DNA from: Rhodanobacter denitrificans
Lineage (GTDB): Bacteria; Pseudomonadota; Gammaproteobacteria; Xanthomonadales; Rhodanobacteraceae
Direction of reading: 5' to 3'
DNA length: 64,000 nucleotides
NCBI RefSeq assembly: GCF_000230695.2
Contig: NC_020541.1
Location: 310,001 to 374,000 of the forward strand
Each line of letters starts with the position of its first letter. Position 1 is the stretch's first letter. Under the pieces are notes generated by a model. It was given only the letters and a program-made list of their open reading frames with translations. It searched no databases and was not told where the DNA came from. The position numbers and the translations under genes were made by a program. This document shows, in pieces, positions 17,919 through 22,169 of the stretch.

Positions 17919-18821
17919 ATGAGCGTTCTTCACGAGTACCTGCTGTTGACCAAACCGCGCATCGTCGCCTTGCTGGTGTTCTGCGCGGTGATCGGCATGT
18001 TCCTCGCTGTGCCCGGCATGCCGCCGTGGCGCGCGCTGGTGTTCGGCACGCTGGGCATCTGGCTGGCCTCGTCCTCGGCGGCCGCGTTCAACCAGCTGAT
18101 CGACCAGCGCATCGACAAGGTGATGGTGCGCACGGCGCACCGGCCGCTGGCCACCGGGCATCTCAACGCGCGCCAGGTGTTCGTGTTCGCGCTGGCGCTA
18201 GGCATCGCCTCGATGCTGGTGCTGGTGCTGTGGGTCAACACGCTGACCGCGGTGCTGACCTTTGCCGGGCTGATCGGTTATGCGGTGATCTATACCGCGT
18301 TCCTCAAGCGCGCCTCGCCGCAGAACATCGTGATCGGCGGCCTCGCGGGCGCGATCCCGCCGGTGCTGGGCTGGACCGCGGTCACCGGCGCGCTGCACCC
18401 GTACGCGCTGCAGCTGTGCCTGATCATCTTCGTGTGGACGCCGCCGCACTTCTGGGCGCTGGCGATCTTCCGCCGCGACGACTACTCGCGCGCGCAGGTG
18501 CCGATGCTGCCGGTGACCCACGGCGTGGTGTTCACCCGCTGGCACATCCTGTTCTACACCGTGCTGCTGGTGCTGGTGACCCTGCTGCCGGTGCTGACCG
18601 GGATGAGCGGCCTGGTCTACCTGGGTGGCGCCGCGGTGCTGGGCGGCGCGTTCCTGTATTACGCGGTGCGCCTGCTTAACCCGCCGGATGAGCTGTACGC
18701 GATGAAGGTGTTCAGCTACTCCATCGTCTACCTGATGGCACTGTTCGCGTTCCTGCTGGTCGACCACTGGCTGCTGCCGCCGCTGGTGCCTTCCGGCCCG
18801 CCGCCGGTGCCGTTCGGCTGA
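17919..18821 (+). CDS. ctaB: Heme O synthase (protoheme farnesyltransferase)
   Basis: This 300-residue UbiA-family prenyltransferase adds farnesyl to heme B, the step before heme A synthase. The Asp-rich substrate site [15 protein letters not shown] and the HRPLATG motif are near residues 57-80, and a second site, [17 protein letters not shown], is near residue 180. Nine hydrophobic helices fit the family. The ATG at 17919 matches the usual start. It ends the oxidase cluster; the next gene along is mgtA behind its own promoter. Confidence 0.95.
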
Positions 18822-18855
18822 GCAGCGATCGTGCGAACTTTCGTCGCCGCAGGCA

Positions 18856-18884
18856 TTGACAGCACGCTGCTGCAGCACAACAAT
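18856..18884 (+). promoter_or_regulatory. Sigma70-type promoter of the mgtA leader
   Basis: TTGACA (18856-18861) and AACAAT (18879-18884) are separated by exactly 17 bp. The -35 element is perfect and the -10 matches four of six positions. The predicted start near 18891 leaves a leader of about 225 nt before the 80-codon ORF, and over 600 nt before mgtA. A GC-rich hairpin (GCGCGC / GCGCGC) follows immediately. Confidence 0.6.
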
Positions 18885-18954
18885 GCGCGCGCCATCCGGC
18901 GCGCTCGCGCCGGCCGGCTCCCTGTCCTGACTAACCAAGGCATATGGACGTTTA

Positions 18955-19062
18955 CCCTAGTCGCAACGTCGACATCCGCTCGCATCGGGTGCCGGCATTG
19001 CATAACAAGCTGATGATCTGCGGCGACCGCCTGCGGTCGGCCGGCGCTTTCCTCGACTAGGG
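18955..19062 (+). promoter_or_regulatory. Riboswitch-like structured RNA in the mgtA leader (unassigned class)
   Basis: A perfect 9-bp helix closes this 108-nt element: CCCTAGTCG (18955-18963) pairs with CGACTAGGG (19054-19062). Inside, GTGCCGGC (18989-18996) pairs with GCCGGCGC (19040-19047), including one G-U pair. A 6-bp hairpin CGACCG / CGGTCG (19024-19039, loop CCTG) ends exactly where the second strand of that helix begins, so the two could stack. About 27 nt between 18997 and 19023 remain unpaired and A-rich, a candidate ligand-binding core. A hairpin that masks a ribosome-binding site starts 9 nt later. I could not match it to the M-box or yybP-ykoY consensus. Function as a metal sensor is inferred from the downstream P-type ATPase. 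Confidence 0.6.
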
Positions 19063-19070
19063 AAGACCGG

Positions 19071-19113
19071 CCCACCTCCTCCGGCGCCGCGGGCGCCGTA
19101 ACGAGGAGATGGG
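19071..19113 (+). promoter_or_regulatory. Shine-Dalgarno-sequestering hairpin of the mgtA leader
   Basis: CCCACCTCCTC (19071-19081) pairs with GAGGAGATGGG (19103-19113) at 10 of 11 positions, around an inner perfect 7-bp stem CGGCGCC / GGCGCCG with loop GCG. The buried GAGGAG (19103-19108) is the only good Shine-Dalgarno for the ATG at 19116, with 7-nt spacing. Opening this hairpin would switch translation on. This is the usual expression platform of a translational riboswitch. Confidence 0.7.
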
Positions 19114-19115
19114 CT

Positions 19116-19358
19116 ATGAAGCTCCTTCGCGATTCCGTTTTGCTGCGCATGCTGCGCCGGCTGCTGGCTGGCCGCCGCGAGGCCGTGCGCGCCACCTACA
19201 CCATCACCGTGCCCGCCCCGCTGGAGCGGTCGGCCGGCAGCAACGTGGTCGAACTGCACCGCCGCGCCGACGCCGGCGGCCGCACGTCGGCGGCAACGAA
19301 GGCCCGCGGCGACGCGCTGCCATCCTCCGGCCATCTCGCACTGGTATCCAGTCGCTGA
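19116..19358 (+). CDS. 80-residue leader ORF upstream of mgtA, unknown function
   Basis: The ORF has a strong but structurally masked ribosome-binding site (GAGGAG, 7 nt upstream). Its product begins with a basic amphipathic stretch (MKLLRDSVLLRMLRRLLAGR), has a TYTITVPAP segment, and ends in a hydrophilic tail with no transmembrane helix. The N-terminus is reminiscent of the basic start of enterobacterial MgtA, which may be coincidence. It stops 156 bp before mgtA. It may be a leader peptide whose translation controls mgtA, or a small accessory protein. I do not recognise it. The coding call rests on the ribosome-binding site, ATG and leader architecture. Confidence 0.5.
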   Translation: MKLLRDSVLLRMLRRLLAGRREAVRATYTITVPAPLERSAGSNVVELHRRADAGGRTSAATKARGDALPSSGHLALVSSR

Positions 19359-19514
19359 TGGTCGCCATGACGTCATGCAAGGGATGGCCTCCGCCAGTGG
19401 CGGAACCGTTCCGGCCGCATGCGCGGCCAGGCACACCGGCGCCGGCGAAGTTGGCGGATTGATTCCGCGGACTCGCATCGGCGGCAGGCATCGGCGAATT
19501 CACGGAAGCGGGTC

Positions 19515-22169
19515 ATGATCAAGCAATCCATCCAGGGTGCCCTGCCGAGGGCGGCCGACAGGGGTGCGTCGGCACCCTTGCACGTGGCGGTGGCGCAGGA
19601 GGCATTCCGCGCGAACAGCGAACTGCTGGCGTCGCTGGAGACCACCCCGGCCGGTCTCGACGAGGAACAGATCGAGGCGCGGCTGCATCGCGACGGCATC
19701 AACGAGGTTTCGTACGAGAAGCCGCCGCACTGGTCGCGGCAATTGCTGCGTGCGTTCAAGAACCCGTTCATCATCGTGCTGCTGGTGCTGGCGGTGGTGC
19801 AGATGTTCGCCACGCCGGATGACCTGTCCGGGCCGATCATCATTGCGGCGATGGTGGGCATCAGCGTGCTGCTGAGCTTCACTCAGGAGTACCGCTCCTC
19901 GAAGGCGGCGGAGAAGCTGAAGGCGATGGTGCGCAACACCGCCACGGTGACGCGGCGCGCCTCCGACGGCCACAGCGAGCGCATCGAGGTGCCGGTGGGC
20001 GAGCTGGTCGCCGGCGACATCGTGCACCTGGCCGCGGGCGACATGGTGCCCGCCGACCTGCGCCTGCTGCATGCGAAGGACCTGTTCATCAGCCAGGCGA
20101 TCCTCACCGGCGAGTCGTTGCCGGTGGAGAAGGCCGCGCCGGGAGCGCACGGCGCGGCCGAGGCGGACCACGCCAATCCGCTGGACCTGCCGACGATCTG
20201 CTACATGGGCACCAACGTGGTCAGCGGCACCGCCACCGCGGTGGCGGTGGCGACCGGCCCGCGCAGCTATCTCGGCTCGCTGGCGCACAGCATCGTGGGC
20301 CAGCGCGTGCAGACCAGCTTCGACCGCGGCGTGAACAGCGTCAGCTGGCTGCTGATCCGCTTCATGGCGGTGATGGTGCCGGTGGTGTTCCTGATCAACG
20401 GCTTCGACAAGCACGACTGGCTGCAGGCGTTCATGTTCGCGCTGTCGGTGGCGGTCGGCCTCACCCCGGAGATGCTGCCGCTGATCGTCACCGCGAACCT
20501 GGCCAAGGGCGCGCTGGCGATGTCCCGGCGCAAGGTGGTGGTGAAGCGGCTCAACGCGATCCAGAACTTCGGCGCGATGGACGTGCTGTGCACCGACAAG
20601 ACCGGCACCTTGACGCTGGACAAGATCGTGCTGGAGCGGCATCTCGACCTGCACGGCGAGGAGTCCGACGAGGCGCTGGAATACGGCTACCTCAACAGCC
20701 GCTTCCAGACCGGCCTGAAGAACCTGATGGACAAGGCGGTGCTGGCGCATCGCGACCTGGAGCCGGCCGCGGCGCACTACCGCATCGTCGACGAGATCCC
20801 GTTCGACTTCCAGCGCCGGCGCATGTCCGTCGTGCTCGGCAACGGCGACGGCCACGACCTGATCGTGTGCAAGGGCGCGGTGGAGGAGATGCTGTCGATC
20901 TGCACCTGGGCGAAGACCGGCGACCAGATCGTGCCGATGACCGACGCGCAGCGCGACGAGATCAAGGAGATGACGCGCGGGCTCAATGAGGACGGCCTGC
21001 GCGTGCTGGTGGTGGCGGTGAAGCAGCAGCCGCCGGCCGGGCGTCCGTACGGCGTCGCCGACGAGAGCGGGCTGACCGCGGTGGGTTGCCTGGCCTTCCT
21101 CGATCCGCCGAAGGATTCGGCGGCCACCGCGATCGCCGCGCTGCATCACCATGGCGTGCAGGTGAAGGTGATCACCGGCGACAACGAGGCGGTGACGCGC
21201 AAGATCTGCCGCGAAGTGGGGCTGGACGTGGAGCATTCGGCGCAGGGCCGGCAGATCGAGCCGCTGGACGATGCGGCGCTGGACGAGCTGGTCAAGCGCA
21301 CCACCGTGTTCGCCAAGATGTCGCCGCTGCAGAAGGCGCGCGTGGTGAAGTCGCTGCAGCGCCAGGGCCACACGGTGGGCTTCCTCGGCGACGGCATCAA
21401 CGACGCGCCGGCGCTGCGCGAGGCGGACGTGGGCATCTCGGTGGATACCGCCACCGACATCGCCAAAGAATCGGCCGACATCATCCTGCTCGAAAAGAAC
21501 CTGATGGTGCTGGAGGAGGGCGTGATCGAGGGCCGCATCACCTTCGGCAACATCATCAAGTACATCAAGATGACCGCCAGCTCGAACTTCGGCAACATGT
21601 TCTCGGTGCTGGTGGCGAGCGCGTTCCTGCCGTTCCTGCCGATGCTGCCGCTGCAGATCCTGGTGCTGAACCTGCTGTACGACATCTCGCAGCTGTCGAT
21701 CCCGTTCGACCGCATGGACGACGAGTACCTGCGCAAGCCGCGCAAGTGGGACGCCAGCGATATCGGCCGCTTCATGGTGTGGATCGGCCCGGTCAGCTCG
21801 ATCTTCGACATCACCACGTTCCTGCTGCTGTGGCACGTGTTCGGCGCGAACTCGATGGCGCACCAGCCGTTCTTCCAGTCCGGCTGGTTCATCGAGAGCC
21901 TGCTGACGCAGACGCTGATCGTGCACATGATCCGCACGCGCCGGATCCCGTTCCTGCAGAGCATCGCCTCGGCCCCGGTGCTGGCGCTGACCACCGCGGT
22001 CATCCTGATCGGCCTGTTTGTGCCGTTCACCGGGCTGGGCGCCAAGATCGGCATGGTAGCGCTGCCGCCGGCGTTCTTCGGCTGGGTGGCGCTGACCGTG
22101 CTCACCTACGGCGTGCTGACCCAGCTGATGAAGCTGGTGTACATCCGCCGCTACGGCCGCTGGCTGTGA
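19515..22169 (+). CDS. mgtA: Magnesium-translocating P-type ATPase
   Basis: The 884-residue P3B-type ATPase imports Mg2+ across the inner membrane. The phosphorylated aspartate is Asp361 in CTDKTGTL; other P-type motifs are the TGESLPVEK actuator loop, KVITGDNEAVTRK, and the hinge GFLGDGINDAPALR. The two N-terminal and six C-terminal helix regions match MgtA/MgtB, including LTASSNFGNMFSVL-like and LPMLPLQILVLNLLYD segments. Length is close to E. coli MgtA (898). ATG 19515 is the first suitable start. It is preceded by the structured leader described above and followed 21 bp later by an outer-membrane protein gene, which may be co-transcribed. Confidence 0.95.
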   Translation: MIKQSIQGALPRAADRGASAPLHVAVAQEAFRANSELLASLETTPAGLDEEQIEARLHRDGINEVSYEKPPHWSRQLLRAFKNPFIIVLLVLAVVQMFATPDDLSGPIIIAAMVGISVLLSFTQEYRSSKAAEKLKAMVRNTATVTRRASDGHSERIEVPVGELVAGDIVHLAAGDMVPADLRLLHAKDLFISQAILTGESLPVEKAAPGAHGAAEADHANPLDLPTICYMGTNVVSGTATAVAVATGPRSYLGSLAHSIVGQRVQTSFDRGVNSVSWLLIRFMAVMVPVVFLINGFDKHDWLQAFMFALSVAVGLTPEMLPLIVTANLAKGALAMSRRKVVVKRLNAIQNFGAMDVLCTDKTGTLTLDKIVLERHLDLHGEESDEALEYGYLNSRFQTGLKNLMDKAVLAHRDLEPAAAHYRIVDEIPFDFQRRRMSVVLGNGDGHDLIVCKGAVEEMLSICTWAKTGDQIVPMTDAQRDEIKEMTRGLNEDGLRVLVVAVKQQPPAGRPYGVADESGLTAVGCLAFLDPPKDSAATAIAALHHHGVQVKVITGDNEAVTRKICREVGLDVEHSAQGRQIEPLDDAALDELVKRTTVFAKMSPLQKARVVKSLQRQGHTVGFLGDGINDAPALREADVGISVDTATDIAKESADIILLEKNLMVLEEGVIEGRITFGNIIKYIKMTASSNFGNMFSVLVASAFLPFLPMLPLQILVLNLLYDISQLSIPFDRMDDEYLRKPRKWDASDIGRFMVWIGPVSSIFDITTFLLLWHVFGANSMAHQPFFQSGWFIESLLTQTLIVHMIRTRRIPFLQSIASAPVLALTTAVILIGLFVPFTGLGAKIGMVALPPAFFGWVALTVLTYGVLTQLMKLVYIRRYGRWL

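Follow-up and report, generated by a model that had tools for sequence, protein, structure and literature searches.

The mgtA locus and its leader region

The window, a stretch of 64,000 nucleotides of Rhodanobacter denitrificans, carries an mgtA gene preceded by a long leader region. Two small open reading frames lie between a promoter-like site and the transporter gene, and the features of this part of the locus are as follows.

18856..18884, + strand: promoter-like site TTGACA-17-AACAAT (TTGACA 18856-18861, 17 nt, AACAAT 18879-18884)
18937..18940, + strand: AAGG, which may serve the leader ORF as ribosome-binding site, just 3 nt before its ATG
18944..19060, + strand: leader ORF, 38 codons and TAG (ATG at 18944, TAG at 19058-19060), recognized by the conservation of its frame
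19116..19358, + strand: ORF2, a second conserved small ORF (MKLLRD...TITVPAPL...), 80 codons here and about 75 generally
19515..22169, + strand: mgtA, Mg2+-translocating P-type ATPase (TIGR01524, 1272.5 bits, cut-off 610.75)

The mgtA frame is listed from 19419 and its relatives align from 19515, the ATG at 19515 being the most likely start. In 124 copies the retrieved DNA includes the stop of ORF2, and in 113 of these the frame runs to 55 codons or more, a length expected by chance in about 34% of cases at such composition. The ORF2 product matches nothing in Pfam or NCBIfam and may act either as a small protein or as an additional leader.

The preliminary description of this DNA had proposed a -35/-10 promoter with 17-bp spacing ahead of a structured mgtA leader with a buried Shine-Dalgarno (SD) sequence. 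Both are borne out. The site at 18856-18884 is the sole sigma-70-like one in 18820-19560, where shuffled sequences lead one to expect 0.1, and its TTGAC is unvaried across an alignment of 52 related copies. The leader between 18930 and 19130 folds with -87.2 kcal/mol (z -2.79; none of 200 shuffles is as stable), and its structure is conserved among relatives. A scan of the + strand of 18820-19560 for intrinsic terminators found none. Directly after the -10 box, at the likely 5′ end of the transcript, lies the inverted repeat GCGCGCC-GGCGCGC (18885-18904), which scored as terminator-like on the opposite strand.

A conserved reading frame inside the element

The region had been described as a 108-nt RNA element. 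Its structures are real, but the element is itself a reading frame running from 18944 to 19060. The encoded peptide starts MDVYPSRN and continues CGDRLRSAGAFLD; the conserved block from the ATG to the TAG reads MDVYPSRNVDIRSHRVPALHNKLMICGDRLRSAGAFLD. When 100 related genomes were searched at the nucleotide level, 54 matched; two of these matches were short and due to chance (L055 and L056) and were dropped, leaving 52 copies, each of them located upstream of the mgtA position. The leader frame has no internal stop in any of the 52, and the other two forward frames are closed by stops (+1 in 47, +2 in all). The span from ATG to stop is 114, 117 or 120 nt, always a multiple of three. A larger collection of 125 distinct copies was assembled with a filter requiring an intact MD..P ORF of 32-48 codons; since that filter itself demands an open frame, the frame counts are drawn from the 52 copies. 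In the larger set the spacer between the leader stop and the next ORF takes 15 different lengths (47-61 nt), so the triplet rule is peculiar to the leader ORF. All 125 of these copies, chosen as they were for an intact ORF, have GAC as their second codon; 119 end in TAG and 6 in TGA. A broken leader frame was encountered in one copy alone, L101 (G170:C7:64457-64561), which lies upstream of an mgtA gene and is absent from the 125. In the same genome Na/Pi and RND genes are preceded by a copy that is intact (L108, L199).

The peptide itself appears less constrained than the frame. Over 98 mgtA-linked copies pN/pS is 0.76 in the leader ORF, against 0.80-1.10 in the other five frames, so the frame and its ends are held more strictly than the peptide, on which amino-acid constraint is estimated to be weak. 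The bases that never vary in 78 diverse copies are mostly those of the ATGGAC start, CC.AGT, the start codon that follows the leader, CTAG at the stop and some G's in paired positions. Towards the end of the peptide R31 and F36 never change and S32, A33 and G34 hardly do (24-row alignment); several RND-linked copies end in RSAFVFLD or RPAFVLLD. The leader ORF has no match in Pfam or NCBIfam.

Distribution and the genes behind the element

A DNA pattern scan of named genomes found 66 stretches, in the genera Rhodanobacter, Dyella, Luteibacter, Frateuria, Fulvimonas and Pinirhizobacter and in one bin named only Proteobacteria, the six genera being members of Rhodanobacteraceae. Of the 398 genomes of the order, 101 matched a leader-peptide profile at an E value of 0.01; 99 belong to the family itself (a few matching weakly) and two weak matches lie outside it. 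At the class level the profile matched 4 of 369 genomes, namely R. denitrificans itself and three weak cases. One class-level match, L088, was considered as a relative outside the family and rejected, as it looks like a piece of ordinary coding DNA without such a leader.

Among 147 genomes of the family, 88 of 89 MgtA genes of at least 77% identity are preceded by the element on their own strand, at a distance below 1.2 kb. The 89th starts at base 5 of its contig, and the element of that genome lies near the end of another contig. Twenty elements are unpaired with a close MgtA gene, and by comparison of the lists none of them stands beside any of about 50 more distant MgtA-like genes (41-59% identity). 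R. denitrificans has one copy of the element. Its genome also encodes a second P-type ATPase, 45% identical to MgtA (G000:C1:623289-625733), without it. L129 was dropped as a copy. L117 (G050:C1), with a TGA stop, no RSAGAF, a degenerate end and a Na/H exchanger behind it, is a doubtful one; it is counted among the 125 and left out of the structural alignment.

The first matched gene behind the 125 copies encodes MgtA in 98, and in these, where the sequence reached, a Na/Pi gene follows 3 kb further downstream in 14 and an RND adaptor in two. The other copies precede an RND adaptor and pump (9), SpeD and an NRAMP transporter (8), an NRAMP transporter (1), SpeD and a TonB receptor (3), a Na/Pi gene (2), or no matched gene (4, two of which have less than 460 nt of DNA). 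Further copies, L196 and L198, precede RND pairs, and L199 precedes three genes in succession, for Na/Pi, an RND adaptor and an RND pump. For each kind a single representative was searched against Pfam, giving AdoMet_dc, Nramp, HlyD_D23, ACR_tran, Na_Pi_cotrans with PhoU, and the TonB receptor, which was also found behind L111. The RND pumps behind the diverged copies are of the CusA/CzcA type.

The NRAMP protein behind L090 has as its nearest solved structure 7QIA (E 1.3e-54; the next is 2.8e-22), presumably the magnesium NRAMP protein of the study that describes the NRMT signature. This signature of Mg2+-transporting NRAMP proteins is outlined as a helix-1 DxxG combined with TxxA/T in helix 6 (PMC8806188). 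The L090 protein, the one examined, has TxxA in helix 6 and NDAGA, that is DxxA, in helix 1, so that one of the two sites fits exactly. The importer behind this paralogous leader is termed NRMT-like on the basis of its sequence. AdoMet decarboxylase, Na/Pi-PhoU and RND efflux could tentatively be fitted into a response to Mg2+ starvation.

Alternative RNA structures

The following folds, all on the + strand, overlap the leader ORF or follow it.

18955..19062, + strand: P1, 18955-18963 with 19054-19062, pairing codons 4-7 with the stop codon region
18964..19000, + strand: P2, a hairpin within the leader ORF with the core 18968-18971:18993-18996 and 18973-18978:18986-18991
19025..19038, + strand: P3, hairpin of the codons D-R-L-R-S
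19035..19076, + strand: anti-sequestor, 19035-19037:19074-19076 and 19039-19044:19067-19072, with a stop-codon hairpin 19047-19053:19059-19065
19069..19115, + strand: SD-sequestering hairpin, 19069-19074:19110-19115, 19076-19081:19103-19108 and 19082-19088:19092-19098
19103..19108, + strand: SD sequence GAGGAG of ORF2, predicted by folding to be buried

Conservation was assessed in a structural alignment of the 125 copies minus L117, thinned at 95.5% similarity to 78 rows. P1, the 9-bp helix CCCTAGTCG (18955-18963) : CGACTAGGG (19054-19062), is present and perfect as first described, and ties codons 4-7 to the stop. It is paired in 91.3% of cells, with two-sided changes in 3 of its 9 pairs (18 cells). 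Six of the 125 copies have C-G for U-A in P1, with CCC as the Pro codon and TGA as the stop; five are of one genus and the sixth is the doubtful L117. L099, L104, L112, L113 and L114, RND-linked copies of one genus, are those with TGA in place of TAG and CCC in place of CCT.

Inside P1 the preliminary description had placed an 8-bp helix (18989-18996:19040-19047) on top of a hairpin near 19024-19039. The hairpin exists as P3 (19025-19038), paired in 96.4% of cells with little variation. The 8-bp helix is a possible pairing (88.9% of cells), but it shows hardly any two-sided changes (2 of 8 pairs, 3 cells) and its 5′ arm is used by P2, a fold that had been overlooked. The four core pairs of P2 are 100% paired in the 78 copies with several pair types (e.g., GC:63, AU:12), and the sequence comparison supports P2 better than the 8-bp helix.

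The anti-sequestor, also overlooked at first, joins leader codons 31-34 to the 5′ arm of the SD hairpin and is mutually exclusive with the lower stem of that hairpin. The window of codons 31-34 pairs with this arm at -16.2 kcal/mol against -12.3 for shuffled arms, and it is the sole window of the leader ORF that pairs much better than the shuffled arms; the next best non-overlapping window differs from them by -1.3. The upper helix is 93.3% paired, with matching changes in L099, L103 and L116, for example. That the SD at 19103-19108 is hidden in a hairpin, as first proposed, holds in the window, where a strong fold buries GAGGAG, the SD of ORF2 between the switch and mgtA. Across the 78-row alignment, pairing of the inner stem that bears the SD reaches only 73%.

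Taken together, P1, P2 and the SD hairpin are paired in 82.6% of their cells, where slid controls give 30-45%; two-sided changes occur in 25 of 41 pairs, a number reached by none of 500 shuffles. In a ranking by pairing and two-sided changes against 184 decoy helices, which has to be read with the caution that the helices were chosen partly on the same data, no decoy equals P1, P2, the upper anti-sequestor or P3, and likewise none equals the lower and apical stems of the SD hairpin. The stop hairpin is equalled by one decoy and the 8-bp helix by two. A tree-based covariation test found no pair below an E value of 0.05 among 19503. In a tree-based pairing test several helices looked strong, but not P1, the stop hairpin or the inner SD stem, for which simulations scored as high in 45, 50 and 91 of 400 cases, respectively. 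This test was discarded because its control failed, 41 of 53 candidate helices passing at 0.05. With the tree-based tests giving no support, the conservation of the folds rests on the decoy ranking. Examined for compensatory changes, as the preliminary description had asked, the 9-bp helix thus shows them in some of its pairs and the 8-bp one scarcely at all, in neither case with phylogeny-aware support. Comparison and folding together point to mutually exclusive RNA folds that overlap the leader ORF, one of which would hide a ribosome-binding site.

A proposed ribosome-read attenuator and its alternatives

The element has the conserved short ORF upstream of a Mg2+ transporter that leader-peptide attenuators have, judging by its sequence. 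The preferred reading, held with about even confidence, is a leader-peptide (uORF) translational attenuator of magnesium-starvation genes. We infer Mg2+ as the signal mainly because two unrelated Mg2+ importers share one leader; the direction of switching is presumptive too. The layout would be one of 1:2 (P1, P2) with 3:4 (the SD hairpin) versus 2:3 (the anti-sequestor), and the position of the ribosome on the leader ORF would decide the state. A ribosome on the last third of the leader would hide codons 31-34, the SD hairpin would close, and ORF2 and mgtA would be expressed at a low level. When Mg2+ is short, ribosomes would pause or fall off near the MD..P start. The freed codons 31-34 could then seize the 5′ arm of the hairpin during its transcription, weakening it so that ORF2 is translated, and mgtA would follow through coupling or protection from Rho. 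With no ribosome, P1 and P2 would favour the off state.

With a ribosome footprint of +14 and averaged over the 125 copies, opening the region from SD to AUG is calculated to cost 11.9 kcal/mol when the ribosome sits at codon 5, 12.9 when it is at codon 18 and 15.5 when it has reached codon 30, against 13.3 for the free RNA. Codon 5 is thus cheaper than the free RNA and codon 30 dearer, which is the order that the attenuator model needs. The SD hairpin stays closed at equilibrium in every calculated state, and the model therefore has to suppose a kinetic choice made during transcription. The anti-sequestor removes just the lower stem, and the SD-bearing inner stem could stay.

The opposite sign is conceivable: a ribosome ending at the TAG (19058-19060) would open the SD hairpin for ORF2 and mgtA, reading through the leader being the on state. 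The geometry is suitable, the hairpin beginning 9 nt past the stop and lying within the 47-61 nt that separate the stop from the ORF2 start. With a footprint of +18 the mean opening cost for a ribosome at the stop is 10.8 kcal/mol, under the 11.9 of codon 5; with +14 it rises to 14.9. Opening is harder at the stop than at codon 5 in 114 of the 125 copies with +14 and in only 42 with +18. Because the sign at the stop hinges on the footprint, such positive coupling is a serious rival, although it leaves the conserved anti-sequestor, P1 and P2 unexplained and is considered unlikely.

The preliminary description favoured a cis-acting, ligand-binding switch, a riboswitch whose aptamer would sense Mg2+ or another ligand. 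On this reading the ORF would be a passenger or a second layer of control. Strong conservation at the RNA level within the ORF, silent sites included (e.g., CGG TCG), and the weak amino-acid constraint speak for it. An aptamer alone was demoted since the leader frame is open in every one of the 52 copies; moreover the invariant letters are mostly the start, the stop and paired sites, and no Rfam class matches, which makes the aptamer improbable. Less probable still is an arrest peptide whose nascent end GDRxRSAGAF would determine the fold by stalling translation close to the stop, for all that R31 and F36 are invariant and residues 32-34 almost, as the same codons build the anti-sequestor arm with a fixed codon choice, several RND-linked copies end differently and the peptide is weakly constrained.

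Relation to known magnesium leaders

A search of 4227 Rfam families against the 64-kb window gave no match at the gathering score, the M-box, yybP-ykoY and the Salmonella mgtA sensor included. At a loose E value there were just four matches in 18820-19420, all below that score. The earlier judgement that the leader is neither an M-box nor yybP-ykoY is thereby upheld. The suggestion of an undescribed class stands insofar as no known Rfam class matches; what is not supported is a ligand-binding riboswitch, the element being a structured reading frame instead.

The attenuator of a Mg2+ transporter that the element appears by analogy to resemble is that of Salmonella mgtQ or mgtL. For mgtQ, which precedes mgtB, PMC8092293 outlines a logic of 1:2/3:4 versus 2:3 stem-loops shown with mutants. 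As outlined there, the two share translational control, a Mg2+ importer preceded by a small ORF with Asp2, and competing stem-loops of which 3:4 hides the ribosome-binding site. The mgtQ ORF has 8 codons and lies within an operon, whereas the leader described here has 37-41 codons (38 in the window), lies at the 5′ end and would act on a second small ORF. Unlike mgtQ as outlined, it stands before several kinds of operon, and the likeness drawn here is one of logic. The mgtQ pattern of Asp2 and Glu5 in an 8-codon ORF was not found: Asp2 is present and Pro occupies codon 5 (codon 6 in copies with a double Pro).

At mgtL, before enterobacterial mgtA, low Mg2+ favours ribosome drop-off at acidic residues, according to the summary in PMC11282234. 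Both are leader ORFs before mgtA with an early acidic residue and a proline. As summarized, mgtL has an EPDP motif and acts through Rho-dependent termination, whereas the present leader has a buried SD as its apparent output and one acidic residue before the proline. No start of the EPDP type was found; the copies read MD..P, with a consensus lacking a second acidic residue beside the proline. Because their motifs fail here, the element is set outside the mgtL and mgtQ families.

The mgtM/mgtP leader of Salmonella mgtCBR likewise combines two short ORFs and alternative stem-loops in a Mg2+-related leader, in the outlines of PMC3641672 and PMC8092293. Its control is transcriptional as outlined in PMC3641672, whereas in the present leader the second ORF is about 75 codons long and follows the hairpin. 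M-box riboswitches also precede NrmT genes (PMC4072509, as summarized), and one RNA class thus stands before both classical and NRAMP-type Mg2+ importers, as here. The M. tuberculosis pe20 M-box has a uORF (PMC12810186) and, in the outline given there, resembles the present leader as a translational platform acting on a small ORF. The present leader differs in that no M-box match was found in it and that its structured part is itself a reading frame. In the literature on Mg2+ leader peptides and uORFs and on RNA motifs of Rhodanobacteraceae and Xanthomonadales, as covered by titles and abstract openings with subscription journals mostly outside that coverage, the element is not described. It looks like an undescribed way for the ribosome to sense magnesium shortage.

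A possible magnesium-starvation regulon

A wider reading, given a little less than even chances, is that this family of ribosome-read leaders forms a cis-regulon of at least five kinds of operon which would coordinate the magnesium-starvation response of Rhodanobacteraceae in the manner of a class of riboswitches, with the ribosome as sensor. The five kinds are MgtA, an NRMT-like importer with AdoMet decarboxylase, Na/Pi-PhoU, CusA/CzcA-type RND efflux and the TonB receptor. The leader-peptide controls of Mg2+ transporters found described are enterobacterial. Here, in another bacterial family, one leader family fronts two unrelated Mg2+ importers together with polyamine, phosphate, efflux and outer-membrane genes. 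The case also illustrates that a seeming new riboswitch can be a structured reading frame. Should the control be confirmed, a comparison of the copies would reveal on which features the Mg2+ response depends; the element would also predict a regulon for Mg2+ starvation in which the linked RND and Na/Pi genes have a part.
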